Shown: piece after piece, positions 8,345 through 63,158 of the stretch
How positions within the stretch are numbered: position 1 is the first letter of the stretch
Layout: each line of letters begins with the position of its first letter
Notes under the pieces: model-generated
What the model was told of the DNA's origin: nothing
What the model saw: only the letters and a program-made list of their open reading frames with translations
The model's database searches: none
IMG/VR virus record: IMGVR_UViG_3300028590_000011
Span: 1-64,000 of that record
DNA length: 64,000 bases
Reading direction: 5' to 3' (one strand)
DNA from: a virus
Made by a program: the position numbers and the translations under genes

Positions 8345-8358
8345 GTTCTCCTCCTTGA

Positions 8359-8432
8359 CCAGTGGGTGGGGCGTTGCAGCACCTAGCCGACGAGCTATTG
8401 ATGGTGTCTTCCCCTTACACCCCACCCACTGG
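8359..8432 (-). promoter_or_regulatory. Leader hairpin in front of dnaE
   Basis: A perfect 13-base inverted repeat (CCAGTGGGTGGGG at 8359-8371 and its complement at 8420-8432) flanks a 48-base loop. The 3' arm ends 14 bases before the dnaE GTG, just next to the ribosome site. It may control polymerase translation or mark an RNA-processing point. There is no U-run, so a plain terminator is unlikely. Confidence 0.6.
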
Positions 8433-26951: not shown

Positions 26952-27206
26952 ATGGCAACACTCACTCGTTTCACCGCCGACCTCGTCACCCAGGAGGCGC
27001 TCTCCGAGCGTCGGGTCGAGATCATCTCGCGTCAGCTGACCGAGTACCTCCACACCCTCATCGTGGAGGACGACGACCGCCCGCACCTGGAGGTCGACAA
27101 GAACGCCCACGGCCACGTCCACGACACGGCCGATGGTGACCGCTGCGGCTACTGCCTGGAGGAGTCCAGGGACTACCGCAACGGCGACTCCGTCGTCAAC
27201 GCGTGA
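26952..27206 (+). CDS. Hypothetical protein with C-terminal CxxC
   Basis: The product has 84 residues. It has a helical first half (RVEIISRQLTEYLHTL) and a His/Asp-rich segment (DKNAHGHVHDTADGD) next to CGYC, a possible metal-binding site. It follows a C/A-rich spacer with AGGAAG. Directly precedes the AAA+ ATPase gene. Confidence 0.66.
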   Translation: MATLTRFTADLVTQEALSERRVEIISRQLTEYLHTLIVEDDDRPHLEVDKNAHGHVHDTADGDRCGYCLEESRDYRNGDSVVNA

Positions 27207-27250
27207 CGACAACCTTCCAACAACACACCACAGAGAGAGATCAAGACAAC

Positions 27251-28843
27251 ATGCCTTCCATCGAAGCGAACACGTTCACCGACCGCGTCTCCAAGAAGAG
27301 CACCCAGGAGACCCTCGCCAAGCTGCGCGAGATCGGCGGTGGCAAGATCACCGAGGAGTCGGGGATCAAGTACCACAACGGTCGGGAGATCCTCCTGCCC
27401 GAGGGGATGGCCCTGAAGACGGCGGCGAAGCTCGTCACCGCGCAGGCCGTCTCCATGGAGGAGCAGCACGACTTCACGAAGGTCTTCAAGTACCGGCCTC
27501 TGGACGGCGCGTACGCGTTGCAGGAGACCCTCCGTGAGATCTTCGGCCTGTCCGGCACGGGCAAGGCCATCCACACGATGTTCGGCAGCCAGCCGCCGCA
27601 GTACATCAACGTGGAGATCGGCATCGGCGTCGAGGTCCGGGTCCCCTGGGGCCACATCGACTTCCCGCCGTTCGAGGGCATGTTCATGACCGGGGCGAGC
27701 CACGACCCGGACTACGGCCTGCTCTTCCAGGTGACCTGCCGCGCACCGAAGAAGTACGAGCCCGAGATCGAGGGCCTCTGGCTCGCGGTCGAGGACACCC
27801 TGCGCCGCAAGTCCATCTACAAGGGCAAGGCGATCGTCGGCGTCGGCCGGGTCACGCGGGAGGGCATGGAGAGCCCGAAGTTCCTCAACCCGTTCGCCGT
27901 CGACCCCAACACCGTCGCCTACTCGCAGGACGTGCTCAACGCCCTGCGGTCGTCGCTGTGGGGCCCGATCCGCACCGCCGAGCTCCAGCGGGCGGCGGGG
28001 CTGAAGCTCAACCGCAAGACCCTGCTGTACGGCACCTTCGGCACCGGCAAGTCGCTGGCCGGTGCACTCACGTCCCGCGCGGCGGTCAACAACGGCTGGA
28101 CCTTCATCCAGACCAAGACCGGCGACGAGGACCTGGAGAAGGTCCTGAAGACCGCCGAGCTCTACGCCCCGGCCGTGGTCTTCATCGAGGACATCGACAC
28201 GCTCATCGAGTCGGACCCCTCGGAGATGGCCAAGCTGCTGGAGCTGTTCGACGGCATCGGCAGCAAGGACAAGGAGGTCATGGTGCTGATGACCTCCAAC
28301 TACATCGAGGCGCTCAGCAAGGGCATGACCCGCGTCGGGCGCATCGACGCGGCGGTCGAGATCGGTGACCTCGACCAGGGCGCCATCCGCAGGCTCATCT
28401 CGAACTCCTTCGAGGACACCGAGCCCTACGACGGCAGCGTGGACCACGGCATCTTCGAGGCCATGTCCAAGCGCCTCAACACCTCGGACTTCAACGTCAA
28501 GAAGGGCAGCCAGCTCTCCGACGACGTGGACTTCGAGAAGGTCCTGGAGTCCATGAAGGGCTACGAGCCCGCCTTCATCATGGGCACGTTCAACCTGGCG
28601 AAGTCCAACGCCATCATCCGCACGGAGTCGCTCAACTTCGAGCTGACCACCGAGGACTTCGTCCTGGCGGCGGACACCCTCCGCAACCAGCACGACACCC
28701 ACCAGAACGCGGCGGACCGCCCCGCCGTGGACACCTTCGGGCAGTCGCAGAAGAAGCTCATCGCGGAGACCGTGGCCGAGCAGCTCCAGGGCCACAAGGT
28801 GGACCTCAGCGACGAGGGTCAGCTCATCACCCTCGAAGCCTGA
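27251..28843 (+). CDS. AAA+ family ATPase
   Basis: The product has 530 residues from the ATG at 27251. The N-terminal 250 residues are unrecognised. The AAA core shows Walker A YGTFGTGKS near residue 260, Walker B VVFIEDIDTL near residue 310, sensor-1-like MVLMTSNY and an arginine-finger region (TRVGRIDAA). This is the FtsH/p97-type AAA layout without a protease domain. It likely unfolds or remodels proteins or complexes; the vWA protein at 20537 is a possible partner. GC at third positions is very high here. Confidence 0.88.
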   Translation: MPSIEANTFTDRVSKKSTQETLAKLREIGGGKITEESGIKYHNGREILLPEGMALKTAAKLVTAQAVSMEEQHDFTKVFKYRPLDGAYALQETLREIFGLSGTGKAIHTMFGSQPPQYINVEIGIGVEVRVPWGHIDFPPFEGMFMTGASHDPDYGLLFQVTCRAPKKYEPEIEGLWLAVEDTLRRKSIYKGKAIVGVGRVTREGMESPKFLNPFAVDPNTVAYSQDVLNALRSSLWGPIRTAELQRAAGLKLNRKTLLYGTFGTGKSLAGALTSRAAVNNGWTFIQTKTGDEDLEKVLKTAELYAPAVVFIEDIDTLIESDPSEMAKLLELFDGIGSKDKEVMVLMTSNYIEALSKGMTRVGRIDAAVEIGDLDQGAIRRLISNSFEDTEPYDGSVDHGIFEAMSKRLNTSDFNVKKGSQLSDDVDFEKVLESMKGYEPAFIMGTFNLAKSNAIIRTESLNFELTTEDFVLAADTLRNQHDTHQNAADRPAVDTFGQSQKKLIAETVAEQLQGHKVDLSDEGQLITLEA

Positions 28844-48400: not shown

Positions 48401-48813
48401 CGCTCGACCGCCTTCACGTTGTACCTGCGCGTGGCTCGGAGCTCACCAGCACGAGCCGAGGAGATGATCTCGAACCGCTTGCCCAGCATCGAGGTGTCCT
48501 GTGTGGGCGCGTAGGTGATCACGATCTGATCGTTCTTGCGCAGGATCGGGGAGTTCCAGGGCAGCGAGAGCTGGACGTTCTGGACCATGATGTCGGTCTC
48601 TCCGAGCATCACAGCGCCTGCTCCCTGGATCTCCCAGATCCTGCACGGGGAGTCCTCGATGATGAGGGTCCGAGAAGTAGCCGGGATGGTCAGGTCGTCT
48701 CCATCCTCGAAGTCCACACGCGTCAGGCGCTCTGCATCGCAGCGGTACTCCATGACCGCCGTGGCACGAGAGCGCACATAGTTGCGCGCGCGAGGAGAGA
48801 TGGGAGAGGCCAT
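48397..48813 (-). CDS. Head-tail adaptor-like protein (DUF6093-type)
   Basis: The product has 138 residues. The layout (MEYRCDAERLTRVDF..., SPCRIWEIQG, VQLSLPWNSPILRKND) resembles DUF6093/head-completion proteins of actinophages. Position between the head fibre/connector genes and the gp10-like gene fits a stopper role. Confidence 0.68.
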   Translation of the reverse strand: MASPISPRARNYVRSRATAVMEYRCDAERLTRVDFEDGDDLTIPATSRTLIIEDSPCRIWEIQGAGAVMLGETDIMVQNVQLSLPWNSPILRKNDQIVITYAPTQDTSMLGKRFEIISSARAGELRATRRYNVKAVER

Positions 48814-49031
48814 CAGATCATTCCTGTTACGGCTCGTCCGAGCGTGCGAGCGACACCGAGAGTGGGATGTTGCGGACTGAGAGTGCCGATCTTGTTAGCA
48901 ACCTTCACGGTCGTCAGCTGTCGCCGCGTGACCGCCTTGCGCGCTCCAGCCTTGTGCTTGGGGTTGACGACCTTGGGCTGGAGTAGCGCCTTGGAGACCT
49001 CGCCATGGTCTACTCCGAAGGCGCTGATCAT
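48813..49031 (-). CDS. Small basic protein with N-terminal SAFGVDHGEVSK tag
   Basis: The product has 72 residues. The N terminus is MISAFGVDHGEVSKALL; the rest is basic and helical (HKAGARKAVTRRQLTTVKVANK) without a clear membrane segment. The tag is shared with the genes at 49718 and 50061. In the head-connector region, so it may be a virion-internal protein. Unknown function. Confidence 0.7.
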   Translation of the reverse strand: MISAFGVDHGEVSKALLQPKVVNPKHKAGARKAVTRRQLTTVKVANKIGTLSPQHPTLGVARTLGRAVTGMI

Positions 49032-49243
49032 CAGGACGCCAGGAGACCGGCTGCCCGCAGCGAGGCGAGCAGGGCGTTGACCTTGGCCACCGTGGTCGGC
49101 AGGTCAGCACCGCCAGCGAGGTTGGCCACCGCAGCAGCGGGCTCCAGGTTCAGCGGAGAGTCCGAGTCCGCCAGAGCGAGAGCAATGGGGCGCGGGACCT
49201 CCAGAGACCGGAGTGCGTCGTACTTGTCCTTGTCGTATGCCAT
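49031..49243 (-). CDS. Head fibre-like protein
   Basis: The product has 70 residues. The C terminus (LPTTVAKVNALLASLRAAGLLAS) matches the typical end of phage head fibre proteins (pattern TVA.KVNALLA.LRAAG). A short N-terminal segment replaces the usual longer one. Located between connector genes. Confidence 0.7.
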   Translation of the reverse strand: MAYDKDKYDALRSLEVPRPIALALADSDSPLNLEPAAAVANLAGGADLPTTVAKVNALLASLRAAGLLAS

Positions 49244-49244
49244 C

Positions 49245-49721
49245 TCAGACTCCTGGGTTCTCTTCCGGGTAGTACTCGGGGAAGTCCTGGCTGCCGTAAT
49301 CCTGGCGACCAGCGGACTTGTCGTCGTGCATCCCCGTGCCGAACGCGAAGGGCTTGATCTCTGGGTGCGTCCCCTCGTAGGGGGAGACGCCGCCCACGTC
49401 TGGGAACCCCCCTACGAGGGAACTCTTGTGCTGCTCCCGGAGGGAAGCAGCGAGTTCACGGAACTGCTGGGCTACCGCTCCGAGGTTGATGGAGACGCCA
49501 TCCGCGCTGTACGACACCTCGCGCGCGTACCGAGCAGCCAGGGAGTCCGCGATGGCCGCAGCCACGAACTCCAGGGTGCCGTACAGCGGCTTCCACTTGG
49601 AGATCATGTAGTTGATCTCCTCGTCCTGCGCGAACCACTCAGAGTCCGCGCCGGTGTCCTGGATCAGGAACCGGACTACGTCCTTGTCAGTGGCCAGCGA
49701 GGGGTCGTATGAGGTGGTCAC
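49245..49721 (-). CDS. Head-tail connector (adaptor)
   Basis: The product has 158 residues from a GTG at 49721. The pattern DPSLATDKDVVRFLIQDTG, then SKWKPLYGTLEFVAAAIADSL and a C-terminal low-complexity tail is typical of head-tail adaptor proteins (gp6/gp15-like). Place in the operon fits. The C-terminal tail is Asp/Gly/Pro-rich. Confidence 0.75.
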   Translation of the reverse strand: MTTSYDPSLATDKDVVRFLIQDTGADSEWFAQDEEINYMISKWKPLYGTLEFVAAAIADSLAARYAREVSYSADGVSINLGAVAQQFRELAASLREQHKSSLVGGFPDVGGVSPYEGTHPEIKPFAFGTGMHDDKSAGRQDYGSQDFPEYYPEENPGV

Positions 49722-50059
49722 AGCTTCGTCTCGGTCTTGTTCTTCTTGCGGCCGGACTTCCAGGTGCTGTAGCCAGCACCGCCCAGCACAGCGGCACCGG
49801 TGACAGCAGGCTTCGCTGCCACAGCCTTGCCAGCGAGCTCAGCGACACGACCGACTCCACGACCGACATCAGCGACGCTCACCTTGGCGTTGGCAGCCTT
49901 GCCAGGGATCGCGGTCAGCTTGCCGAGGCGAGCCTTGTTCCGGGCGTAAGCAGCCTGCTGGTTGGCGCGCACGTTGGCCTTGTGCTGCGCCTTACGACGA
50001 CCAGCGGGGGTCAGCGCCTTGGAGACTTCTCCATGCTCGACCCCGAACGCGCTCTCCAT
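49718..50059 (-). CDS. Small basic protein with SAFGVEHGEVSK tag and C-terminal Gly/Ala helix
   Basis: The product has 113 residues from the ATG at 50059. It begins MESAFGVEHGEVSKAL; the middle is strongly basic (GRRKAQHKANVRANQQA), and a Gly/Ala helix (PAVTGAAVLGGAGYSTW) with a basic tail ends it (SGRKKNK). This suggests a nucleic-acid-binding, membrane-active protein carried in the virion. Unknown function. Confidence 0.72.
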   Translation of the reverse strand: MESAFGVEHGEVSKALTPAGRRKAQHKANVRANQQAAYARNKARLGKLTAIPGKAANAKVSVADVGRGVGRVAELAGKAVAAKPAVTGAAVLGGAGYSTWKSGRKKNKTETKL

Positions 50060-50060
50060 G

Positions 50061-50387
50061 TCAGGCCCCCTTCTTCCGGTTGGCGTAGACACCACCGGTC
50101 AGACCGACAGCGCCGCCGCCAATGACAGCCTTGCCGGTAGTCGTGCCCGCGAAGCCCTTGGCGCTGTTGCCAGCGGCACCAGCGAAGGACTTGGCCTTCT
50201 GGCCCATGGTCGACTGGAACGCCTTACGAGCGCCACCAGCAGGCGCGCCAGGCTTCTTCTGAGCACCAGTCATGGACTGCTGCCCCAGCCTCTTCAGGTT
50301 GCCGCCCATGGCGCTGACCTTGCCCGTGGGCATGGAGAAGGCCTTGGAGACCTCACCGTGCTCTACTCCGAATGCGCTCTCAGACAT
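50061..50387 (-). CDS. Small basic protein with SAFGVEHGEVSK tag and C-terminal Gly/Ala helix
   Basis: The product has 108 residues from the ATG at 50387. It begins MSESAFGVEHGEVSKAF, has a basic Gly/Ala-rich body (AQKKPGAPAGGARKAF), and ends with GKAVIGGGAVGLTGGVYANRKKG. The layout parallels the gene at 49718: tag, basic body, Gly helix, basic end. Unknown function, likely virion-associated. Confidence 0.72.
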   Translation of the reverse strand: MSESAFGVEHGEVSKAFSMPTGKVSAMGGNLKRLGQQSMTGAQKKPGAPAGGARKAFQSTMGQKAKSFAGAAGNSAKGFAGTTTGKAVIGGGAVGLTGGVYANRKKGA

Positions 50388-51090
50388 TGTCGAGGATGCC
50401 CTTCCGCTTCTTGTTGGCCTGCTCCACAGCCACCACGCGGTTGTACTCCTCTTCGGAGATGTCGCTCGCGAGGTAGTCCATGACCTCATCCACGGTGTGC
50501 TCCGTGGGGTCGTAGAGGTCTTCCTCAGTGATCACCGGCTCGTCATCTTCGAGATCCTCGCCCTCAGAGACGACGTTCTGTCGTTCTCCGGATAGAGCAG
50601 CGGTCTCTTCAGCAACAGGGTCGTCGCCACTCTCGTCGCCAGGGACAGTGTCGTCCCCATCGAGAACATCATCAGATCCCTCTGCGTTCTCGTCATCCAG
50701 CACCTTCTCCGTCAGGGCGTTGGCGTGAGCCTCGGCCTTCAGAGCAGCGGCGACATCCTGGTCCTCGTACTTCTTCGCCGGGGTGGTCTCCACCGACGGG
50801 AACGTGAGGTCATGCTGCTTCGGCTTGTTGTACGCCGACTCACCCAGCGCAGTGCCGAGCTTGGCGTCGATGACTTCCCGAGACCAGACGTGGTGGTGCC
50901 AGTGGCGCGGCTGGTCAGCGGGGTCATCGACCACCGCGAAGAGACGCCGCGTACGGATGAGCAGATCGATACGACCGGTGGCCTCGTCCTGAGGGAACTC
51001 TTCCCCCATCGAGTAGTCCTTACCGGCGTACGTGAAGTTGCGAGCGCAGATGAAGTACACCGCGCCGTTGTTGTAGAGCTGGGACGGCAT
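50380..51090 (-). CDS. Hypothetical acidic protein after capsid gene
   Basis: The product has 236 residues. The N-terminal half is folded (GAVYFICARNFTYAGKDYSM) and the C-terminal half is strongly acidic and low-complexity (NAEGSDDVLDGDDTVPGDE). It follows the major capsid gene after a terminator hairpin. It may be a capsid accessory or connector protein. Unknown. Confidence 0.68.
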   Translation of the reverse strand: MPSQLYNNGAVYFICARNFTYAGKDYSMGEEFPQDEATGRIDLLIRTRRLFAVVDDPADQPRHWHHHVWSREVIDAKLGTALGESAYNKPKQHDLTFPSVETTPAKKYEDQDVAAALKAEAHANALTEKVLDDENAEGSDDVLDGDDTVPGDESGDDPVAEETAALSGERQNVVSEGEDLEDDEPVITEEDLYDPTEHTVDEVMDYLASDISEEEYNRVVAVEQANKKRKGILDNV

Positions 51091-51110
51091 CTCTATCTCC
51101 TCAGATAGTG

Positions 51111-51144
51111 AGAGGGGGCCAGGGACTACTCCCCAGCCCCCTCT
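51111..51144 (-). terminator. Hairpin terminator after major capsid gene
   Basis: A 9-base stem (AGAGGGGGC / GCCCCCTCT) with a 16-base loop, starting 16 bases downstream of the capsid stop. It shares the AGGGGGC core with the hairpins at 33526 and 35935. It may hold capsid mRNA in excess. Confidence 0.72.
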
Positions 51145-51160
51145 ACAGGTAACGCGTGGA

Positions 51161-52159
51161 TCAGGCGACAGCGTCCGCGAGGAAGATGCCCATGTCGGGG
51201 GAGACGACCTTCATGTCGTAGGTCATCTCGCCCTCGATGCGGTCCGAGGCGATGTGCTCCATCCGGAAGTTCTTCATCCGGATGCCGTAGCTGTTGCCAG
51301 CCAGATAGCCGTTCCAGGTGAAGATGTAGCCCGAAGCAGGAGTCATCAGCGACGGAGACGACGGCGTGTAGCACAGGAGCGCGCTCTTCGAGTTGCTCAT
51401 GAAGCTGTACGACGCGGCAGCGTCCTGGGTGTCAGCGTCGTTGCGCTCAGCGACATCCGTGAAGGAAGCGTACGAGACCAGGATCTTCTCCACGTCGAAG
51501 AGCGACGCGAGGAGGTCGGTGGTCACGACACCCTTCTGGGTGTACTTGATCCGGTCGATGATGTCCGGGTGGTTCTTCAGCGAGGTGATCGCCTCAGCAC
51601 CGAGGACCAGGGTGTTGGCCTTCCGACCAGACTGGAGGACGAAGTCCGTCTGGAGGTTGGCGAACTGCACGATCGGGTCCGACGCGGCGTCGTTCCACTG
51701 GAGGAACTGCGAGCCAGACGGAGCGGCAGCAACACCAGCAAGGTCGGTGCCCCAGACACCGGTCTTGAAGTAGGCGTTGTTCCAGTCCAGGTCACGCTTC
51801 AGCAGGAGCTGGTTGGTGACGAACTTGGTCGCGTCCTTGTCCAGGCTCCAGTTGGAGTCGGCGTTGGCACGGGTCTGGTCGTCCAGGTCCTTGTGGACCG
51901 CGTACACCTGCGCGTAGTAGGTGTCCGTGTCGACCTTGTAGCCGATACCAGCGGACTCGGTACCCGGCGCACGCTTCTGGACATCGGTCCGACGCCAGTC
52001 GGACTTGCTGTACTTCCAGAAGAGGTCCGACTGCTTCTGCACCGGAACTCGCGGGAAGACCTTGTCAGCGATGAACGTCGCAGTGTCCTGCATGTACGCC
52101 ACGCTGACGTTGGTCAGCGGTGCGTTGACGTGGAGATCGCTCTGAGTCGGGTTAGGCAT
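51161..52159 (-). CDS. Major capsid protein
   Basis: The product has 332 residues. It has the layout of HK97-fold capsid proteins of the type with MCP preceded by a decoration gene: an N-terminal arm, TYYAQVYAVHKDLDDQTRANA, LVLGAEAITSLKNHPD, YSFMSNSKSALLCYTP and a C-terminal MKNFRMEHIASDRIEGEM. No cleavage propeptide is obvious. Position between scaffold/decoration genes and connectors supports the call. A strong hairpin follows. Confidence 0.9.
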   Translation of the reverse strand: MPNPTQSDLHVNAPLTNVSVAYMQDTATFIADKVFPRVPVQKQSDLFWKYSKSDWRRTDVQKRAPGTESAGIGYKVDTDTYYAQVYAVHKDLDDQTRANADSNWSLDKDATKFVTNQLLLKRDLDWNNAYFKTGVWGTDLAGVAAAPSGSQFLQWNDAASDPIVQFANLQTDFVLQSGRKANTLVLGAEAITSLKNHPDIIDRIKYTQKGVVTTDLLASLFDVEKILVSYASFTDVAERNDADTQDAAASYSFMSNSKSALLCYTPSSPSLMTPASGYIFTWNGYLAGNSYGIRMKNFRMEHIASDRIEGEMTYDMKVVSPDMGIFLADAVA

Positions 52160-52174
52160 AGCTCGCTCCTCCTA

Positions 52175-52591
52175 TCAGAGCTGGATCAGAAGGAGAACCG
52201 AGATCAGCTCTCCAGCGTTGGCAACGGACGAGACCGCCACACCGACGCAGAGACCGCCGCCGCCAGTGGCGTCAGTGGCCTGTCCGTCAGCAGAGACGAA
52301 GACCTTCTCGCCAGCGTCGATGGCCTTGTCAGCCACCACCTTGCTGACACCTCGGATACCGACAGTGGCAGCGCCACCCGTGACCTGAGGCTTGTTCTGC
52401 ACGACACCGATCACGCCGGTGTCGTCCGCGTCCGCGAGACCGACCTGATGCGCGCCGGTCACCTTCACGAAGTGGTACTGCTTACCACCGTTGGGCGAAG
52501 CGCTGCCAGGCTGGCCGGGGACGCCGGTGTACTGCGCCAGGGTCGCATCCGCGTTAAGCGTGATGGACCGGAGGCTCTCCTCGTACGCCAT
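52175..52591 (-). CDS. Capsid decoration protein (DUF2190-type)
   Basis: The product has 138 residues, Gly/Val/Ala-rich and beta-type: GAHQVGLADADDTGVIGVVQ, ATVGIRGVSKVVADKAIDAG and GLCVGVAVSSV. This matches the DUF2190-like capsid decoration/stabilisation proteins that lie directly before the capsid gene. It should bind the capsid surface. Confidence 0.8.
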   Translation of the reverse strand: MAYEESLRSITLNADATLAQYTGVPGQPGSASPNGGKQYHFVKVTGAHQVGLADADDTGVIGVVQNKPQVTGGAATVGIRGVSKVVADKAIDAGEKVFVSADGQATDATGGGGLCVGVAVSSVANAGELISVLLLIQL

Positions 52592-52614
52592 GAGATTCCC
52601 TACCCTTCCTTATC

Positions 52615-53415
52615 TCAACGTCCCCGCGAAGCGAGGTACTCGTCGTATGCCTGCGGGTTGTCGTCCAGGACATTCACGATGTCCGTGGCACCAGCGGACT
52701 TGCCGATCGTCTCCGAGGCGTAGGCGGTCACAGTGTCCATGACATCGGCGTTGTCGCCGCCGCCCCGGTAGCCGACCTCCTGGAAGAGAGCCTCACCGGC
52801 AGTCTCCAGGCACTTGGCGATGACCGCGCAGTCCTCGTAGCTCATCGTCTCGGCCATCCGATACAGGACCGGGCCGAGCTCCTCACCGGAGACCGGGAGG
52901 TTGTAGCTGTCCGCCTTGGAGATGTACTCGCGGGTCAGGCGCAGGTCACGCTCGGCCTTGGCAGCCTTGGCGATCTCCTGGGTCTGCTTCTCCAGCTCGT
53001 CCACTCGGCCGAGCGCCTTGGAGATGATCTTGTCGCGGTCCTCGTCGCTGAACGCCTTCGACAGCTCTTCGAGCACCGACTGGGCGAATCCGCCCTTGGG
53101 GGCCTGGGTCTGGTCGAAGAAAGCCGACTTACCAACGGTAGCCAGTTCCTTGTCCTCGACGTTCTCCTCCTCCGTCAGGGTGAACTCGTAAGCGTTCCCC
53201 TCGGAGTCGTATACGACCTGGCCGTCCTCCAGGGTCTCCTGGTCCAGGGCCTTGCCGTTCTCATCGAACAGGTCGATCTCTGCGGGCATGTTGTCCTCCT
53301 CAGGAGCCCTCTTAGCGATGGTGATCATTGCGTGCTGATTGGCACCCTTGTCGACCAGAGAGATCTCATCGATCTCCATGTTGGTCAGGTTCTTAATCGG
53401 CTTCGGCATCTCCAT
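52615..53415 (-). CDS. Scaffolding-like head protein
   Basis: The product has 266 residues. The N terminus has EIDEISLVDKGANQHA, a motif seen in phage head-morphogenesis proteins related to XkdF. A long helical, acidic/basic middle (EELSKAFSDEDRDKI, AKAAKAERDLRLTREYIS) is typical for scaffolds. It lies upstream of decoration and capsid genes. The start is ATG at 53415 or 53409. It contains two [IVL]SKA motifs. Confidence 0.7.
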   Translation of the reverse strand: MEMPKPIKNLTNMEIDEISLVDKGANQHAMITIAKRAPEEDNMPAEIDLFDENGKALDQETLEDGQVVYDSEGNAYEFTLTEEENVEDKELATVGKSAFFDQTQAPKGGFAQSVLEELSKAFSDEDRDKIISKALGRVDELEKQTQEIAKAAKAERDLRLTREYISKADSYNLPVSGEELGPVLYRMAETMSYEDCAVIAKCLETAGEALFQEVGYRGGGDNADVMDTVTAYASETIGKSAGATDIVNVLDDNPQAYDEYLASRGR

Positions 53416-53449
53416 CAACCTCTGTTCTTAGTCTCGGGTGTACGTCTAG

Positions 53450-54223
53450 TCAGTCATGAACGATGCCGAAGGCCGACTCGTTCGAGCTCTTCTTGAAGTT
53501 CTGGCGACGGCGCTGGTTGATCTTGTGTTGCTGATAGGTGTGCTGTCCCTTGGCCCCCGCGCCAACAGCGGCAGCAGTTCCAACGAGAGCGGCTCCACCC
53601 ACGCCAGCGGCTACGGTCTTCTTGGCCTTCGCTGCGCCAGAGACGATCTTCCCAGCAGACTTAAGTCGTCCACCGGCCTTCAACCCCATCGTCCTGTTCA
53701 CGCGGTCAGCGGTCTTCAGGTTGCTACCGAGACGCTTGAAGGACTTCGAGTCGCTGTTATACGCCGCAGCAGTGACACCAGCACCGAGAGCAGCACCAGC
53801 GCCAGCTGCGCGCATCACCTTGCGATCTCTGCGCTGAGTCTGTTCCCGCTGATCGATCGTCTTCCAGTTCCCGAACTTGGAGATCTCGAAGGGGTCGTTC
53901 TTCTTCACGGGAGTCCTCTTCCTCGACTCAGCATTGGTGTACGCGGCGAAGTTGTAGCCGCCCACACCGCCGATGCCACCAGAGACCACACCGATGTTCT
54001 TAGCCTGGTCTCCAATCTTGTTGCCGACAGCCTTGACTTGGTTGTCGGTCCGTCCGGAGTACTTGGGGATCTTGCGCAACATCCCCGGCTTCTTCTTCAG
54101 AGCAGCACCAGCACCCAGTAGTCCCAGACCAGTCAGCCCCAATGTGGAGGTGGTCTGGGAGATGTGTCCTTGGACCTTCTTGCGGCGCTTGATCTCCGCG
54201 TCGCTCATGATCCGGTTAGCCAT
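53450..54223 (-). CDS. Gly/Ala-rich basic protein with C-terminal SAFG tag
   Basis: The product has 257 residues. Hydrophobic Gly/Ala segments (LTGLGLLGAGAAL, GAGAALGAGVTAAAY, VGGAALVGTAAAVGAG) alternate with very basic stretches. The centre has FEISKFGNW and the C terminus ends ESAFGIVHD. It lies between protease and scaffold genes. It may be a virion-internal membrane-active protein. Unknown. Confidence 0.7.
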   Translation of the reverse strand: MANRIMSDAEIKRRKKVQGHISQTTSTLGLTGLGLLGAGAALKKKPGMLRKIPKYSGRTDNQVKAVGNKIGDQAKNIGVVSGGIGGVGGYNFAAYTNAESRKRTPVKKNDPFEISKFGNWKTIDQREQTQRRDRKVMRAAGAGAALGAGVTAAAYNSDSKSFKRLGSNLKTADRVNRTMGLKAGGRLKSAGKIVSGAAKAKKTVAAGVGGAALVGTAAAVGAGAKGQHTYQQHKINQRRRQNFKKSSNESAFGIVHD

Positions 54224-55079
54224 GGTCTACCCCGAACGCGCTCATGGTGTCCGACTTGGAGATGCCGCGCTTCTTCCGGCTGTGGTGCACCGCAGCAGTC
54301 GCGCCAGCAGCCCCCAGGCCCAAGGTGATGGCTCCACCGGACTTGCCGGTGTGTGTCACGGCGAGCGTCCGCTTCATCTTCCCGCCAGGCAGATCCTTGG
54401 GGTAGTTGCGGAAGAACTGCCGGAACCGAGGATCGCCAGCGGTCATCCCCTTCGGGCGGTACTTGTCCTCATGCGCCTTCATCTTCTTGCGCATCCCAGG
54501 GTTCGACTTGATCTTCTTCTCGTTCTTCCAGTCGAGGGGCTTGGTAGCCATCACCCCACCCTGGTATCCGAGCATGGCTCCAGCACCACCGGCGTACGCA
54601 GCCGTGGTGTCCTTGCGGTCCATCGCCTTGCCGAACTTCTCGTTCTTCTTCGCCTGGTGCATGGCACCGGCGTACGACAGTGGCAGGCCCACGCCTACAG
54701 CGCCCAGCCAGAGTTTCGACTGCTTGGGGTAGACCTTCGGCTTGATCGCCCTGCGCGCGACCTTCAGATCGTTCAACTTGCGGTACCCAGCCTTGCGCTC
54801 AGCGCGGAGTGCTTCCTTCGCAGCGGGCTTGTGCCGGTTCAGGGTCGAGTCACCCTTGCGGTTCTCCTGCTGCCACGAGCCCCGAGCAGGTCGCTTCGGG
54901 ATGGCTGCCTCAGCACGGGCGATCTTCTTGTCCGCAACGTTCTGTCGTACCGCGATGGTCTTGCGCTCGACCCGAGAGACAGCAGGAACACCCAGCGCCA
55001 TCGCGCCGCCACCCACAGCAACAGCAGCGCCACCGTGGGTCTTCTTGTCCTTCTGCTTCCGGAACTCCTCGAAGTCCAT
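54216..55079 (-). CDS. Gly/Ala-rich basic protein with C-terminal SAFG tag
   Basis: The product has 287 residues from the ATG at 55079. It has four Gly-rich hydrophobic segments (GAVGVGLPLSYAGAM, YAGGAGAMLGYQGG, AITLGLGAAGATAAV and an N-terminal AVAVGGGAMALGV) between Lys/Arg-rich stretches and ends ISKSDTMSAFGVDHG. The tag is encoded across the start of the next gene. Probably a companion of the 257-residue protein. Confidence 0.7.
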   Translation of the reverse strand: MDFEEFRKQKDKKTHGGAAVAVGGGAMALGVPAVSRVERKTIAVRQNVADKKIARAEAAIPKRPARGSWQQENRKGDSTLNRHKPAAKEALRAERKAGYRKLNDLKVARRAIKPKVYPKQSKLWLGAVGVGLPLSYAGAMHQAKKNEKFGKAMDRKDTTAAYAGGAGAMLGYQGGVMATKPLDWKNEKKIKSNPGMRKKMKAHEDKYRPKGMTAGDPRFRQFFRNYPKDLPGGKMKRTLAVTHTGKSGGAITLGLGAAGATAAVHHSRKKRGISKSDTMSAFGVDHG

Positions 55080-55080
55080 G

Positions 55081-56046
55081 TCACTCTCCCATCGGTGTAC
55101 GCATCCCGCGCCCGTGGATGGAGAAGCCGGTGCGCTCACCGTTCTTCACCTTGCTCCACAGTTCGGGGTCGTTGATCTGGTAGCCAACCCACCAGCCAAC
55201 CGGCATCTCCTCAGGGAGACCCAGCGCCTTCTTCTTCTCCGGGGTCACTACAAAGGACTCGATCATGTCCGACTTGTGCACCGGAGCATCACCGTCGCGT
55301 AGGTGCATGTCGCCACCCTTGCGGGACTTGTGCACGTACTCGTACGCGGACTTCTCTACCTCGCTGATGGAGATGTAGTCGCCCTGGAGATCGACCACTG
55401 GCTCGCCGTTCATCTCCACGATGGAGGCCCAGCCGAAGACCTGCTGCTTGTCGGAGTCGACCTTGGAGATCTCACCCTCCCAGCGCACGTCGAACTCATC
55501 AGCCTTCTTGGAGACCTGGGACTTCAGCCGGATCATCCCCTGCTTCGTCCCGCACTTGACCTTGGTCTCGACATGGTTCCCAGCCTTGGTGAGCACCTTG
55601 CGCTTCAGGGCACCGGTGGAGATGTGCAACTCCGACTGATCCGGGCTGGCCTTGTGGACCCTGGCCTTCTTGGGCTTGCTCGATGCAGAACGTGCGAGCA
55701 CGCGGTTGGCGACAGCGTCTCCGGCGATGTTAGCCACCTGGAGACCGAGAGCGCCACCAGCCAGCGCTGCGCCCGTCTTACCAGCCTTGGACGAGATCGG
55801 CTTCGGGATCTTCTGACCCGTCGCGTAGATCTTCCGAGAGAGCTTCCCGCCCTCCTTGAACCGGTCGTCGCGCAGAGCGGCAGCAGTACCAGCCACACCC
55901 GCACCGAGGCCAACGATGTTCGAGGCGAGACCCACCTGGGCCTGTCGCTTCTCGCGCTTGGCCTGAGCGTCCATCTTGGCCACAAGGTCGTCAGCGCCGC
56001 CTCCATACAGAAGGTTCGCTACCTCACGGAACGCATCAGTGCTCAT
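55081..56046 (-). CDS. XkdF-like phage protease with N-terminal hydrophobic domain
   Basis: The product has 321 residues from the ATG at 56046. The C-terminal part matches XkdF-type putative serine proteases: GEISKVDSDKQQVFGWAS, VDLQGDYIS, FVVTPEKKKALGL, GWWVGYQI and FSIHGRG. The N-terminal 130 residues hold two Gly/Ala hydrophobic stretches (ASNIVGLGAGVAGTAAAL, GAALAGGALGLQVANIAG) with basic linkers, like the two proteins downstream. Probably matures head proteins. Catalytic residues cannot be fixed by eye. Confidence 0.78.
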   Translation of the reverse strand: MSTDAFREVANLLYGGGADDLVAKMDAQAKREKRQAQVGLASNIVGLGAGVAGTAAALRDDRFKEGGKLSRKIYATGQKIPKPISSKAGKTGAALAGGALGLQVANIAGDAVANRVLARSASSKPKKARVHKASPDQSELHISTGALKRKVLTKAGNHVETKVKCGTKQGMIRLKSQVSKKADEFDVRWEGEISKVDSDKQQVFGWASIVEMNGEPVVDLQGDYISISEVEKSAYEYVHKSRKGGDMHLRDGDAPVHKSDMIESFVVTPEKKKALGLPEEMPVGWWVGYQINDPELWSKVKNGERTGFSIHGRGMRTPMGE

Positions 56047-56068
56047 GTTCCTATCGTCCTTCCCTGCG

Positions 56069-58051
56069 CTACTCATCGTGATCACCGAACTCCTCCATCT
56101 CCACGTCCGGGAGTGCATCGAACACCGGGAAGAAGAACCGGTTGTTCGCGGTGCCTACGCGCTGCTTGGTGTCTTCCAGTACGTAGTCGCCTTCGGTGAC
56201 CCAACTCTCCAGCCCGTTCCGAGTCGGAGCATCAGCCTGGTAGGTCCTACCCAGCGAGGAGTCATGACCCTCGTCCAAGCGCAGGACCATGAAGGTCAGG
56301 TTGTCTGGGTTGACCCCCCACTCCCGAGCCAGTTCGCCGTAGGTGATCTGGTCAGGCATCTTGTAGTCAGGAACTCCACCTTCAGTGGTGTACCAGTCCA
56401 GGTTGATCTTGGTGTTCTCGCCAGTCCAGTCCGGGTCGCCGTTGGCGTTCCCAGAAGCGATGGCTTCTACCAGAGCGAAGATGTCATCATCCTCGATGAA
56501 GGCGTGGTACTTGTTGCCGTCCTCGCCGTACATCTCGACCATGCCGCCCGTGTGGTCCTTGATGGACTCGTACTCGTCCATGATCGCCTCATCGAGGCGC
56601 TGCACTGCTCGCTCTGCGATCAGCACCTCGTCCGGGCTCCACACTATGCTGCTGTTGGCGTTCAGGTAGTCGTTGTAGGTGCTCAACTCATGCGGCGTGA
56701 CGACTGTGTACACGGGGTACTGCTTGCCGTTCTCAGACTGGATCTTGACCGTAGGCGAGTAGAAGACTCGGTTCCTCGGCTTCTCCAGCGCCTTCAGTCG
56801 AACCAGGTCACGGGCCACATCCTCGGTCAGCGCCAGCTTCTGGAGCGGAGGCATCCCCAATCGGGTCTTGGTCTGCTCCTCGCGACCGAGTGAGACCTTC
56901 TCCGCAGTCTTATCGCTCAGCGAGACATGTTCGATCGGAGTCAGACGGACCTTTCGCTGAGGAGACAGACGAACTTTGCGATCCTCAGAGAGCCGTACCT
57001 TCTGCTCCGGCTCCAGCCTGACCTTCTCCTGCTCTCGGATCACCGGCTCAGCGTCGCGCACGCGCTGCGCTTCTCCTACCAGGTTGTCCAGGAAGGCCGA
57101 AGGCTTGTCCTGGGTCTTGACCGCGAACCGTCCGTCCGAGGTGCGCTTGTACTCGTCGTCGTACCAGCGATCCGCCTTGGAGACGATCGGGTCTACAACC
57201 TTCACCTCGCACCGGCAGTTGGGGTGAACACCGGGAACCCACATCTCGATCTTGTTGGGCAGCACGAAGCGCTCGCTGACGCCCACTCGCTTGCCGTGCA
57301 TCGGGCCGCAGATGGCGCAGGTCTTCTCGTCCTTGGCCGTCAGCCAGACCTTCTCGGCCTCAGCTGAGAGAGCCCCGTGATCCTGCATCCAGAGCCACGC
57401 CGTCTGCTTCGCCTGGAGGTCGAGGTTGTGAACCTCCTGCTTAGCGAACACCTTCAGGCGGCTCCTGATGGAGCGACCGATGTACTCCCTGACCATCTGC
57501 TTGGCAGACATAGGCTGCGCGCTGGTGATCTTCTTCTTCACGTCCAACGCAACGTAGCCACTCATCTGGCGAGGAGTGAGCCCGTACGCGTCCAGCGCCC
57601 GGTCCGCAGCAACGCGGACAGGAAGCTGACGATTGACGAAGGAGTTGAACCCCTGGAGCAGCGCGTCCTTGGAGGTGGCATCGAAGTACTCACCGATCCG
57701 GCGAGTGTGCTGCTCAGCCAGTGCGTAGATAGTCGTCATTGGCACATCGCCAGCGCCAGCAGCGCGGTACGCGCGCACGTACGCCTCAGCAGCAGCCGGA
57801 CCGAGGATCGCGTTCTTCCGACCCAGGAACAGAGCCGAAGCCTGGTCCAGGAGAGCCACCAGTCGAGATCCAGTGATCTCTGGCTCCTTGGCGATCTGCT
57901 CCTTGATGTAGTTGATGACCAGCAACCGGTGCGACATCAGTGCCGAGTGGATCATCTCCTCCAGGCTGCCGAGGTGCTTCTCGTCTGCACGCTTCAGAGC
58001 CCCCACCGCAAGGTCAGGGGCTAGAAGCTCTACATAGGGAGCAGTGGTCAC
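56069..58051 (-). CDS. MuF-like minor head protein
   Basis: The product has 660 residues from a GTG at 58051. The MuF core is clear: KTCAICGPMHGKRVG, then WVPGVHPNCRCEV. An octad repeat (KVRLS) follows, and the C-terminal 300 residues are a further unrecognised domain, perhaps an effector or toxin-like domain as found in other MuF fusions. It lies downstream of the portal and a 1,089-residue protein. MuF proteins are head-morphogenesis proteins. Confidence 0.85.
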   Translation of the reverse strand: MTTAPYVELLAPDLAVGALKRADEKHLGSLEEMIHSALMSHRLLVINYIKEQIAKEPEITGSRLVALLDQASALFLGRKNAILGPAAAEAYVRAYRAAGAGDVPMTTIYALAEQHTRRIGEYFDATSKDALLQGFNSFVNRQLPVRVAADRALDAYGLTPRQMSGYVALDVKKKITSAQPMSAKQMVREYIGRSIRSRLKVFAKQEVHNLDLQAKQTAWLWMQDHGALSAEAEKVWLTAKDEKTCAICGPMHGKRVGVSERFVLPNKIEMWVPGVHPNCRCEVKVVDPIVSKADRWYDDEYKRTSDGRFAVKTQDKPSAFLDNLVGEAQRVRDAEPVIREQEKVRLEPEQKVRLSEDRKVRLSPQRKVRLTPIEHVSLSDKTAEKVSLGREEQTKTRLGMPPLQKLALTEDVARDLVRLKALEKPRNRVFYSPTVKIQSENGKQYPVYTVVTPHELSTYNDYLNANSSIVWSPDEVLIAERAVQRLDEAIMDEYESIKDHTGGMVEMYGEDGNKYHAFIEDDDIFALVEAIASGNANGDPDWTGENTKINLDWYTTEGGVPDYKMPDQITYGELAREWGVNPDNLTFMVLRLDEGHDSSLGRTYQADAPTRNGLESWVTEGDYVLEDTKQRVGTANNRFFFPVFDALPDVEMEEFGDHDE

Positions 58052-61000
58052 TGGGACTTCCGCTTGTCGGCGTACATCTCCATGGTGAGCCTCTCGGCTT
58101 CCTTGACAGTGTCAGCCCCGCCGAACACACCGCCACGGAGGTCTTCCACATCCTCATGCGACTTCACTCGCTGCCGCTCATCGTGCAGAGCCTGAGCGGC
58201 GATGTAGAGAGTGTCAGCAGCGTTGTCGTTACCCAAGTCGGCGTAATACTGAGCAGCCTTCTCGAACTCGCTGATGAGCGTCGACACTCGACCCTGGGGC
58301 CGGAGCTTCTCCTCAGCGGTCACAGGAGCGTTTCGGATGACGATGTCTCCCGACTCCTGGCGCATGGTCCCCTCAGGGCCCTGTCCGTCCTTCAGCGCGC
58401 GCATCCGGTGCACCGTCTCCAGTTGCGCGGTGATCTGCTTCGGGTCAGAGACCAGTCGGGTCACGACCGGCGAGTTACGCACGACCTGGAGATCACGAAG
58501 CAGTTCCACACGGTCCATCGCAGGCAGGTCGTCCGGACCCTGACCGAGGAAGGTACGCATCTCCTTCAGGACGTTGTACTCGTCCTTCAGCTCAGCCTCG
58601 TTCATCTCAGAGAGTGGCTTGTCGTGCCGTACGCCACCCGAGTCGATCTTCTTCATCTCGGCCATCCGAGCGCTCAGATCAGCACCGGTCTCGTAGGCAG
58701 CACCAGAGAAGGCGAAGGGCTTGTCGCCCCAGACCCCAGCCACATCAGCGCCGTACTCCTTGCGACCGACATGACCAGCAGCCACCTTGTACGCTGCACC
58801 AGCCTCACCGAGCCTGACGTTGGCGCTAACTGCGCGCGACACCAGCGAGTCGAACTTGGCCTGGTTCTCCGGCTGGGCCAGCTCCTCCGGGGTGAGGTTG
58901 AGAAGCTTGGCCTCTTCCTCGTTCGGCTCGATCCGGTCCTTCAGCACAGCCTGCACAGAGACCGCAGCCTCCGCGTAGTTCTGCGCCGCACGGCGCTCAG
59001 CCACCACGCTCTTGACCGACTTCTTCTGCTCACCGGTGGGGTTGAGCTGGAAGTTCTTCGCATCGAAGGGAGCAGGGCCATCCGGTGAGGGAGCGCCCCG
59101 TCGCGGACCACCGCTACCCCGACCACCCTGGTAGTCGGCCTCAGATGCCGAGAACTTCCCACCAACCATGGTGGGGTTGCGCTTGGCGTTACCGAACAGA
59201 CCAGCGGCTGCGTAGGTCGGGCGGTTGCGTCCCGGCTCCACGTAACCACGGTCGAGCGAGGTCTCCATGCGGTCCATGTGACGACGCGGGACAGCGTTGG
59301 CGTCCTTGATGTAGTACGGGAACTGCTCCTGGAGCGCGATGAGGGCAGCCTTGTAACCCTCGCCGTTCAGCCGGTACTTGTACTCCTTCTCGGCGGCGAG
59401 TTCGTTCATCACGTCGCCCATGAAGTCGTCCGCGTCCTTGCCCTGCGAGCCCTGAGCGCGCTGAGTAGCGATGAACCGGGCCAGCCGCTCGTCGTGGTCG
59501 CTCAGTTCCGGAGACGACTTGAACTCGTCCACGCGGCGGTTGATCTCGGTCTGGATGTCCTTACGCGGGGCGTACCCGCCCATCTCCTCCATGACCTCGG
59601 TCTTGATCGCCTCGCGGATCTCCGGGTTGAGAGACATCCGATCGACCTGCTCCGACTGCACTGCGTCGAGGAGCTGCTCATAGCGCCGAGTCATCCGGCG
59701 AGCTTTGTCGTTGTAGCGACGACCACCGGTGAAGTCCTGCTCGAACTCCATGGTGAAGACACCCGAACGAGAGACCACCGTGACCTGGCGAGCACCAGAC
59801 ATGAGACCGGTGTAGACATCCTCGGAGGTGAGGCCACCGACAGAGCGGTTGCGGATGTACTCCCCGCCCTTCAGACCCTTCAACTTGCGGAGGTTGAAGG
59901 GCAGATAGTGGTCGTCTCCATAGCCCACGGCCTGGTCTACGACCTTGCCGTCCTTGTCGATGATCACGCCCTCAGACGGAGGGGTGTTGCCCGAAGCGAG
60001 CTGGAGGTCGTAGAGCTTCTGGCTCGGAATCCTCCGCGACAGGTACTCGACCGCCACCGCCCGACCGTTGGCTCGCTCCTCCCAGGTAGGAGCGCGTCGC
60101 TCAGCCGAGATGCGGGCAGCAGCCATCTGCACCGGCGAGAGTTCCTGCGGGCGCTTCAGGTTGGCCTTCTTACCCTCCGGGGTGTTCCGGTACGGGTCGT
60201 TGGCAGTGGCCAACTTCGCATCGCGCATGGCGCGGTCCACAGCACCGACGACCACCTTGTCCGGGGTCTTGGAGGTGCCCCGGTAGCGGTAGGCGGTCTT
60301 ACGCGCCGAAGGGCCGAAGACAGCCTCAGCCTCCGAGCCATGGTCACCGACGAACTGAGCCATCCGCGCTGCGAGCTGAACCTTGGACCCAGCCGGAGCG
60401 ATCTCGCCGACGATCTTGGAGCCAGCGGACAGTCGTCCGTACAGACGCGCGTTCGAGTCCCGGCCGTCTACCTGCTGGTTCCAGTCCTGCTCGAAGGATC
60501 CGAAACCGGAGTCGACAGCGTTGATGCCGCGCATGGTCTCGTAGCGCTGCTTGGAGCCGTCCGCGCCCAGAGAAGTAGACAGACCGAAGTACGCCCCACC
60601 AGCGGTGAGCGCGTTCGGACGCGCATCCAGACCCACCAGGTCCTCGTGCTTGGGGTCCCACATCTTCGGGTCCGGTCGCGTCGAGGAGGTAGTGACGGTG
60701 TACACCTGGCCGTTGTGCTTGTTCCGGATGTGGGCGATCACGTCGCTGTCGCCGGGGTTGCGAGAGGACGCGTGAACGGCCCCGAGGAAGTTGGTCAGCT
60801 GCCGGTACTGGTCCTGGTAGGCAGCAGCACGACGCGGCGGGAGACCCTCGACATCCTTGCCATGCGGGAGCCCCATCGACTCAGCCGTACGCCCCTTGAT
60901 GGGCTTCACCTGAGAAGTGGTCACCTTGGCCCGGAACCGACCAGTGCCGGGGTCACGGCTGAAGTCGGACTCCTTGAACCGGTAGCCGTAGTCGTACGGG

Positions 61001-61317
61001 GTCGCCTTGGAGATCTCCGAGAGAGCCTTGGCGAACTCCACAGCGCCGTCCGTGTCCTTGGCAGCAGCACGCATCGTGGCGCGCTTCAGCACCTCCACGC
61101 GCTTGGAGATGACCTTGTTCAGGTGACGCTGGAGAACGGGCAGATTCTTCTCGATCGTCTCTTCGACCATGTCGTTGGCGACGTGGTAGCAGAACTCGCG
61201 AGCCTCTTCCTCGTCCATCTTCATGATGAGGTCGTAGACCTTCTGGGCAGCCTTGTAGTTGAAGTCCGGGTTGTCGGACTTGAAGATCGAACCGCGCTCG
61301 ATCGGCGTGAGAGTCAC
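58048..61317 (-). CDS. Large hypothetical head-region protein (1,089 residues)
   Basis: The product has 1,089 residues from a GTG at 61317 that overlaps the portal stop. It is mostly helical and charged, without recognisable domains. Near residue 105 it has SEISKATPYDYGYRF followed by a DPGTGRFRA segment (compare TSDGRFAVK in the MuF protein). It could be an ejected virion protein or an enzyme. The size is far above the usual inter-portal genes. Confidence 0.75.
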   Translation of the reverse strand: MTLTPIERGSIFKSDNPDFNYKAAQKVYDLIMKMDEEEAREFCYHVANDMVEETIEKNLPVLQRHLNKVISKRVEVLKRATMRAAAKDTDGAVEFAKALSEISKATPYDYGYRFKESDFSRDPGTGRFRAKVTTSQVKPIKGRTAESMGLPHGKDVEGLPPRRAAAYQDQYRQLTNFLGAVHASSRNPGDSDVIAHIRNKHNGQVYTVTTSSTRPDPKMWDPKHEDLVGLDARPNALTAGGAYFGLSTSLGADGSKQRYETMRGINAVDSGFGSFEQDWNQQVDGRDSNARLYGRLSAGSKIVGEIAPAGSKVQLAARMAQFVGDHGSEAEAVFGPSARKTAYRYRGTSKTPDKVVVGAVDRAMRDAKLATANDPYRNTPEGKKANLKRPQELSPVQMAAARISAERRAPTWEERANGRAVAVEYLSRRIPSQKLYDLQLASGNTPPSEGVIIDKDGKVVDQAVGYGDDHYLPFNLRKLKGLKGGEYIRNRSVGGLTSEDVYTGLMSGARQVTVVSRSGVFTMEFEQDFTGGRRYNDKARRMTRRYEQLLDAVQSEQVDRMSLNPEIREAIKTEVMEEMGGYAPRKDIQTEINRRVDEFKSSPELSDHDERLARFIATQRAQGSQGKDADDFMGDVMNELAAEKEYKYRLNGEGYKAALIALQEQFPYYIKDANAVPRRHMDRMETSLDRGYVEPGRNRPTYAAAGLFGNAKRNPTMVGGKFSASEADYQGGRGSGGPRRGAPSPDGPAPFDAKNFQLNPTGEQKKSVKSVVAERRAAQNYAEAAVSVQAVLKDRIEPNEEEAKLLNLTPEELAQPENQAKFDSLVSRAVSANVRLGEAGAAYKVAAGHVGRKEYGADVAGVWGDKPFAFSGAAYETGADLSARMAEMKKIDSGGVRHDKPLSEMNEAELKDEYNVLKEMRTFLGQGPDDLPAMDRVELLRDLQVVRNSPVVTRLVSDPKQITAQLETVHRMRALKDGQGPEGTMRQESGDIVIRNAPVTAEEKLRPQGRVSTLISEFEKAAQYYADLGNDNAADTLYIAAQALHDERQRVKSHEDVEDLRGGVFGGADTVKEAERLTMEMYADKRKSQ

Positions 61318-63158
61318 TTCTTACCGTCCTTCTTGGGTGCGGGCTTCTTGGCAGCCTCGCGCTGCTTGATCTTCAACTGCTCCATCGCGCGCTGGTGCTT
61401 CTTCTGCTCAACGGCTTCCTGGAGAGTCATCTTCTCCTTCTCGCGCTTCAGGCCAGAGTCGGCGCTCCGCTCTTGGAGAGCCATCTTCTCCTTCTCGCGA
61501 GCGTGCTGCTTCTCAGCGTTGGGGTCCTCAGGCGGCGGCTGGTTCTGCATAGCCAACTGCTGCTGCTCCTTGGCCTCGTCCATCTGGCCGACCGGGTGCT
61601 GACGACGGATCAGCTCCGCGTCCATCTCATCGCTGGCCATCTGCTGCTGCATCTCGGGCGTCGGCATGTTCTGGACCTGGTCAGCCTGCTCCGGGCTGTA
61701 GCCCTGGGCTGCCATCTCCGCACGCTGCTGGAGACCGATGAGACCCATCTGAGAGTCAGCGAACTGCATCGCCTGCTCCTGGACGAGCATCTGCCGCTTG
61801 AACTCCTCGGACTCCGGAGTCATCTCCGGGAGGCGAGCGATGTCGCGAACGAACTTCTCCAGCTCCGGGTCCGGGAACCACTGCATACCGGCACCAGCCG
61901 TAGCCGAGATGAAGCCAGCGAGCTGGTTCAGGTCAGGCGGGTCGATGTCGGTGGGCTCGAACTTGGGCAGTTCGTCCAGCTTCCAGCCGTTCACTGCGAA
62001 CAGCTTGGGGACCAGGTGTCGATTCAAGGTGTCCGCGATCGACTTCACGATGGCGTTCAGGGCAGCCCGGAAGATGCCCGTCTTGTCAGTGTGCAGTGAG
62101 TAGGAGCCGACCTGCTGGTGGCCCACCAGGATGAAGTCCGCGAGAACGCTCATCAGGATGCGCTGCTCGTACCGCTGGATGATCGAGTTGGTGTCGAACT
62201 GACGCGAGCCCGAGGAACTCATCAGCTCGAAGTCGAAGAGCGGCTGCTTGGTGTCCCGGTCGTACTGGACAGGGAGGACCAGGCCCTCGTTCTCGTCCCT
62301 GCGCACGCCACGGACCATCTTACGAAAGGCCTCGACCGTCTTGGCCTGGTCGGTACCAGGCTGCGCCTTCATGAACTCGGCAGGCACCTTAGCGACCGGC
62401 ATACCCGCGAGGTCACGCTCGACACCGATGGCCTCGAACTCCTCCAGGCGCTTCTTGAAGTACCAGGAGCGGTAGGCGGTGCGGAGCAGGCTGACGCCCT
62501 CCGGGTTGCCCTTGGCGATCGAGGTACGGAACAGCAGCGACTTCTCGATCGGGATGACAGTGGTCTGGTAGACCGGGGGTGCCATCTGCACCATGGACTT
62601 GATCCCGCCCGACTCATCGAAGGACCAGCGGAGCATGGTCTCCTGCGAGCGAATGGGCATCTTGCGGATGCCGAACTTCCCATCCGTGTGCTTGGAGCGC
62701 TTCGACGGGTCCTTCTCCCAGGGTCCGACCCTCTTCTTGAAGACGATCTCGTGCCAACTCCACCCGTAGGTGAGCATGGAGAGAACCTCACCGATGAAGT
62801 CGTCCCAGGAGTGGCTCATGTCGTCCATGCAGGACTCCAGGAACTCCTTGGCAGCCTCAGCATCCTTGCCGTTCTCCGGAGGCAGGACGTTCCACTCCAC
62901 CTCGCGGATCAGCTTGTCGATAGCGAACAGCAGCGACCCCACCATGGAGTCGTTGGTCGACATCTCGCGGTAGACCTTGACTGCCTTGCGACCTCGGAGT
63001 GCCGGGAGGAACTCCTCATCGATATAGCCCGCGACGCGCTTGACACCCGTGACACCCAGCTCCTGGAGCGGGCCAACGTTCTTCGGGACTTCGTCTCCGA
63101 CGTTGTCGTCATAGCCACGGTCGCCCATCGGCAGGCCCTCGGGCAGTCGTGTCGTCAT
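61314..63158 (-). CDS. Portal protein (DUF935/Mu gp29-like)
   Basis: The product has 614 residues. The pattern resembles DUF935-type portals: an N-terminal YREMSTNDSMVGSLL segment, WHEIVFKKR, a wing with YQTTVIPIEKSLLF and a stem region ending in PDPPDL-like IDPPDLNQL. A long coiled-coil Lys/Gln tail (EKMALQERS, EAVEQKKHQRAMEQ) is at the C terminus. Upstream of MuF and downstream of terminase, as in Mu-like head modules. Confidence 0.92.
   Translation of the reverse strand: MTTRLPEGLPMGDRGYDDNVGDEVPKNVGPLQELGVTGVKRVAGYIDEEFLPALRGRKAVKVYREMSTNDSMVGSLLFAIDKLIREVEWNVLPPENGKDAEAAKEFLESCMDDMSHSWDDFIGEVLSMLTYGWSWHEIVFKKRVGPWEKDPSKRSKHTDGKFGIRKMPIRSQETMLRWSFDESGGIKSMVQMAPPVYQTTVIPIEKSLLFRTSIAKGNPEGVSLLRTAYRSWYFKKRLEEFEAIGVERDLAGMPVAKVPAEFMKAQPGTDQAKTVEAFRKMVRGVRRDENEGLVLPVQYDRDTKQPLFDFELMSSSGSRQFDTNSIIQRYEQRILMSVLADFILVGHQQVGSYSLHTDKTGIFRAALNAIVKSIADTLNRHLVPKLFAVNGWKLDELPKFEPTDIDPPDLNQLAGFISATAGAGMQWFPDPELEKFVRDIARLPEMTPESEEFKRQMLVQEQAMQFADSQMGLIGLQQRAEMAAQGYSPEQADQVQNMPTPEMQQQMASDEMDAELIRRQHPVGQMDEAKEQQQLAMQNQPPPEDPNAEKQHAREKEKMALQERSADSGLKREKEKMTLQEAVEQKKHQRAMEQLKIKQREAAKKPAPKKDGKK

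Follow-up and report, generated by a model that had tools for sequence, protein, structure and literature searches.

Five tagged proteins in the head gene region

The window, that is, the whole stretch of 64,000 nucleotides of viral DNA that was analysed, carries on its minus strand the genes of a Mu-type portal protein (61314..63158; PF06074, E=5e-35), a MuF-like protein (56069..58051; PF04233, E=3e-10), an XkdF-type prohead protease (Peptidase_S78_2, 55081..56118; PF14550, E=9e-19, 68 bits against a cut-off of 24), a putative acidic scaffold (52615..53418), a capsid cement protein (52175..52591; PF09956) and the major capsid protein (51161..52159; phrog_1005, E=4e-88). Between the portal and MuF genes (58048-61317) lies the gene of a 1089-aa protein that has no Pfam match, and many relatives have such a gene. 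The window also encodes a DNA polymerase III alpha subunit (5642-8425), a Toprim/CHC2 primase-like protein (10215-11165) and an AAA ATPase (27203-28843).

The peptide SAFG(V/I)xH(G/D) is present in five minus-strand proteins of the window, at the N-terminus of three and at the C-terminus of two. The first N-terminal copy belongs to a basic protein of 72 aa (48813..49031, start at 49031), in which the tag and the predicted cut site read MISAFGVDHGEVSK / ALLQ (48990..49031). The second is found in a basic Gly/Ala-rich protein of 113 aa (49718..50059; likely ATG at 50059, the ORF could open at 50095) and reads MESAFGVEHGEVSK / ALTP (50018..50059), and the third in a basic Gly-rich protein of 108 aa (50061..50387; likely ATG at 50387, the ORF could open at 50489) and reads MSESAFGVEHGEVSK / AFSM (50343..50387). 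The cut sites of these three and of the two C-terminal copies were predicted from the sequence and the site pattern. A basic Gly/Ala-rich protein of up to 307 aa (54216..55139) ends with RGISK-SDTMSAFGVDHG (S at 54242), where the predicted site ISK / SDTM precedes SAFGVDHG and the stop codon (54219..54263). Another basic Gly/Ala-rich protein, 257 aa long (53450..54223), ends with NFKK-SSNESAFGIVHD (S at 53476), where FKK / SSNE precedes SAFGIVHD and the stop codon (53453..53497). At 54215-54227, the upstream gene finishes its tag with GAC CAT GGC TAA, and the ATG within these letters is where the next gene starts, so that the tag overlaps a start codon.

A preliminary description had reported a tag common to five head-region proteins, and all five were confirmed in these genes. 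The DNA pattern for AFG(V/I)xH, GCNTTYGGNRTNNNNCAY, matches the window five times where 0.04 matches are expected, each time inside one of the five tagged genes, and none of 100 dinucleotide shuffles of the window gave five matches. The 80-kb parent record, an IMG/VR virus contig, contained no copy beyond the five.

Distribution and variation of the tag

When IMG/VR was scanned for a degenerate form of the tag pattern, 78 stretches were returned, with true SAFG tags in 70 and chance matches in 8. Two T-initial matches (L011 and L023) and six further single-match contigs were discarded as chance. With a looser pattern, up to nine tags per record were found in the 34 parent records, on a single strand in every record, and a reversed control pattern matched only once in all 34. 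The IMG/VR matches and the relatives fetched by their capsid protein gave about 230-241 distinct tagged proteins, in which the tag is N-terminal (190), C-terminal (44) or internal (7). After removal of the tags, 234 bodies were sorted into 111 BLAST clusters.

Of the 46 loci with a major capsid protein of 77% or greater identity to that of the window, 45 contain the tag, and the sequence of the sole tagless locus ends just after the capsid gene. The tag was detected in 8 of 26 loci at 65-72% identity and in none of the 8 loci at 61-63%. The preliminary description would have been refuted by a lack of the tag in the head modules of related phages, which the 45 loci contradict. Selection is at the protein level: the 229 tags of relatives are encoded by 202 different 21-mers, in which Ser codons come from the TCN as well as the AGY set and every Gly codon is used, but the residues A, F, G and H never change. 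A chance origin, or the recent copying of a single gene or DNA repeat, could be suspected from the similar composition of some bodies within one phage. It is refuted by the counts, namely the excess of matches in the window, the 111 body clusters, the 202 DNA versions and the single match of the reversed control, and can be regarded as practically excluded.

Sister tags occur in diverged relatives, some of a W type (MISYWGIDHGDEISK, MSTSAWGVEHGSEISK and MISVWGVDHGSTVSK) and some of an Arg type (MTTLDAFGVDRPDLYGEVEK and MTYIDAFGVARDDLVAK). The tag types (F, W and Arg) cluster on the capsid-protein tree, with 7 changes against 16.2 after shuffling. Locus L289 has no SAFG tag, and around its positions 3880 and 4560 two reading frames open with or near VSKAFRDLDEVEK and VSKALRDLDEVEK, which are possibly another tag type. 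When 84,980 cellular genomes were scanned for the tag, 81 stretches matched by chance and no tagged protein was found; the motif matches among these stretches are of the AAFGVDHGEV/GAFGVDHGEV type and mostly come from Pseudomonas. Nothing was found when the tag consensus was compared with cultured phages by tblastn, and three cultured phages with an approximately 45% identical capsid protein lack both a SAFG tag and a shared terminal peptide. A search of the phage literature for the tag string found it in no paper.

The tag and the lysine site as separate modules

Position statistics of the N-terminal tags resolve a fixed core S-A-F-G-(V/I)-(D/E)-H, a spacer of variable length and then a Lys with I/V/F at P3; at this lysine site P2 is mostly S/E/A and P1' favours A/G/S. 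The C-terminal tags are preceded by a like site, (Y/V/L/I/F)-x-K. When Psi is defined as I/V/L/F/Y/M, Psi-x-K lies within 8 aa downstream of the tag in 186 of 188 N-terminal cases and within 7 aa upstream in 42 of 43 C-terminal cases, against 5.5% and 7.7%, respectively, at random positions of the same proteins, and it flanks both sides of all seven internal tags. All P-values are nominal and too small, because the tags are homologous.

Since the spacer between them varies in length, the tag and the site are taken as separate modules. The side on which Psi-x-K stands switches with the body, so the lysine site tracks the body and not the tag, and a cut there would part the two. The residues EVSK were assigned to the second module because the C-terminal tags lack them and have a hydrophobic residue-x-K ahead of the tag instead. 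The preliminary description offered two alternatives for internal virion proteins, a site of cleavage or a signal for capsid targeting. Both are favoured by the evidence, as neighbouring modules: the address would be SAFGVxH(G) and the cut site [IVFLY]-x-K, with the function inferred only. Internal tags with predicted cut sites at either side are present in proteins of L074 (8706, minus strand) and L017 (2454, plus strand), which therefore look like small polyproteins.

The putative scaffold and the prohead protease

The acidic protein encoded at 52615..53418 is designated a putative scaffold on the basis of its position and its weak similarity to protease and head proteins. It has a charge of -12.6 per 100 aa and contains seven [ILVFYM][SATEG]K[AGSR] sites against 0.52 expected in shuffles, and none of the other head and tail proteins of the window is significantly enriched in this pattern. 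Among 55 scaffold homologues, 415 sites were counted against 24.6 expected (17-fold). The sites are kept at about eight columns among homologues of 32-76% identity; being inherited at fixed columns, they do not represent 415 independent events. Enrichment in other families ranges from 0 to 3-fold with small counts (2.4-fold in the protease, 3-fold in one connector family). The likely scaffolds of the cultured phages ValentiniPuff and Laroye contain 10 sites against 0.92 expected and 5 sites against 0.81, respectively, and no enrichment was seen in these two proteins when Lys was replaced by Arg or Glu in the pattern. A lysine-type prohead protease would be expected to leave such a pattern.

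These sites also bear on the idea that the tag serves for targeting or docking and is never removed, Psi-x-Lys being uncut and merely a docking surface or linker. Encapsulins, non-phage shells with the HK97 fold, define their cargo by a short terminal peptide that acts without being cut off, and the tag and Psi-x-K occur nearly always together, as would suit a permanent peptide. However, the variable spacer, the side switching of Psi-x-K, the flanking of internal tags by two sites and the enrichment in the scaffold would remain unexplained, and we consider this reading unlikely. Unlike in an encapsulin, the portal, MuF and prohead protease genes lie near the capsid gene here, so the locus does not encode a shell without viral packaging genes.

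Of the 26 true-tag records, 21 contain the protease domain PF14550, and none of the 8 chance-match records does (Fisher p=7e-5, nominal), which answers in the affirmative the question, raised in the preliminary description, of whether the tag tracks XkdF-like proteases. In most of the five tag records without PF14550 the tags lie near a contig end, and those records may therefore be truncated. In an alignment of 29 homologues, H272 and S288 are among the invariant residues and are inferred to be catalytic. A fold search with a poor structure model of the protease (pLDDT 57) gave no significant match among solved folds, and a profile search of solved structures with the protease gave no match. 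The conserved GEISK at residues 215-219, before the protease domain, was considered as an autocleavage site and rejected, as it lies in a predicted strand; a match to Psi-x-K is thus not always a cut site. The protease at 55081-56118 also matches phrog_1530 (1.3e-22), which is labelled DNA methyltransferase, a name that is also used for related phages in GenBank; the label looks like a propagated misannotation of the prohead protease.

Could the tag be no more than a protease exosite that attracts the enzyme to its substrates and has no part in targeting? The cut site adjoins the tag, and the tag tracks the protease. Yet the scaffold has many sites without a tag, so the protease would not need one, and some relatives retain a good protease and a Lys-rich scaffold with no recognisable tag, which indicates that the protease does not require it. 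Moreover, removal for its own sake would not explain why about 110 unrelated bodies should lose a terminus, and an exosite alone is judged very unlikely.

Tagged proteins as proposed cargo

All tagged bodies have a net positive charge (median per 100 aa of +14 for N-tagged and +12 for C-tagged bodies), as opposed to the -12.6 of the scaffold, and many are Gly/Ala-rich with zipper-like hydrophobic stretches. Gly-zipper families are matched by single tagged bodies, and GNAT acetyltransferases were found above the Pfam cut-off in 2 of 50 tagged bodies. In one body family, 33 members have a C-terminal tag and 7 an N-terminal one; L075 is tagged at both ends. Internal tags are present in the MuF protein of L194 and in the Mu-type portal protein of L178. 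MuF and portal proteins face the inside of the head.

Larger N-tagged proteins (259-326 aa) without a convincing Pfam match are encoded in L195 (6439-7416), L024 (6778-7554), L179 (7232-8113) and L173 (7662-8471), several of which open alike after the tag, with GKFVRAVD or GGVFKPAS; it is possible that they are enzymes or effectors. A guess that the bodies of L060 and L052 are ADP-ribosyltransferases had no Pfam support and was dropped.

The tagged genes in part adjoin the portal and terminase genes, follow the tape-measure gene or sit among other late genes, and such scattered positions are as expected for separately acquired cargo genes. The same positions, together with the many Gly/Ala-rich, zipper-like bodies, might instead suggest that the tag is a non-capsid address (membrane, tail or host factor, for example) of late proteins in general. 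This is hard to reconcile with the tags in portal and MuF proteins and with a tag that varies with the capsid lineage and accompanies the site of the scaffold, and a non-capsid address is judged extremely unlikely.

Comparison with known systems and proposed mechanism

In phage T4, propeptides of 10-19 residues target internal proteins to the core and are removed by gp21 after L/I-x-Glu. The T4 scaffold is cleaved by this rule at many positions, and Alt loses propeptides from both termini (PMC9026906). The tag resembles the T4 capsid-targeting sequence (CTS), the N-terminal propeptide of IPI-III, in being a short peptide common to otherwise divergent basic proteins (here 111 body clusters, whose internal location is inferred), bounded by a hydrophobic-x-P1 site that recurs in the scaffold, here as a pattern of residues only. 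In contrast to T4, P1 is Lys, with Psi-x-Lys in place of L/I-x-Glu, the protease by Pfam matches only PF14550 (XkdF) and not the family of gp21, and the tag SAFGV(D/E)HG stands at the N-terminus, at the C-terminus or inside about 110 body types. The function of the CTS was demonstrated in T4, whereas that of SAFGV(D/E)HG is only inferred.

In phage P1, an N-terminal signal loads the internal protein DarB, and its first 30 residues bring a reporter into the capsid; the accessible portion of that paper describes the signal for one protein and reports no tag common to many (PMC9024508). In SPN3US and phiKZ, gp245 and gp175 remove propeptides from internal and ejected head proteins (PMC10052503, PMC9026906). 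As far as the excerpts of these sources go, SPN3US likewise follows a simple P3-x-P1 rule, A-x-E, with Glu at P1 and not Lys, and the propeptides are mostly long, with no common tag reported (PMC10052503, PMC9026906).

Sequence alone shows that the proteins have a tag in common, that a Lys site adjoins it on the side of the body, that this kind of site is enriched in the scaffold, that the protease co-occurs with the tag and that the tagged bodies are basic. As this anatomy matches T4 targeting feature by feature, a mechanism of tag binding, cutting and cargo retention is proposed: SAFGV(D/E)HG is quite probably a removable capsid-targeting tag that is cut off by the XkdF-type protease after Psi-x-Lys, a reading for which no virion or cleavage data are at hand. 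The tag would bind an inner component of the prohead, most likely the scaffold core, and thereby recruit unrelated basic cargo, both the targeting and the partner being inferred. During head maturation, the protease would cut after Psi-x-Lys between the tag and the body and free the cargo. It would also break the scaffold at like sites, and the tag and scaffold pieces would leave the head. The basic cargo would remain in the virion beside the DNA, and some may follow the DNA into the host, the latter being a weaker inference made by analogy.

Evenly balanced, in our judgement, is the further proposal of a position-independent cargo tag (N-terminal, C-terminal or internal, with cut sites always facing the cargo). 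By means of it, a whole lineage of phages would exchange about 100 different proteins, including enzymes, that are carried in the virion and injected as effectors, and the tag would evolve together with the head lineage. What would be new, by inference, is a removable capsid-targeting peptide usable at either end and on an unusually large and changing set of cargo.

Implications

If the proposed mechanism is true, the T4 targeting sequence would have an independent counterpart in an unrelated lineage, and XkdF proteases would follow a lysine-type maturation rule, testable in cultured Microbacterium and Arthrobacter phages. A small tag that works at two ends could also be used to load proteins into phage heads. 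The internal proteins of these so far uncultured phages would become readable from the genome, with the tag marking predicted virion cargo, and about 230 hypothetical proteins would become candidate injected effectors.
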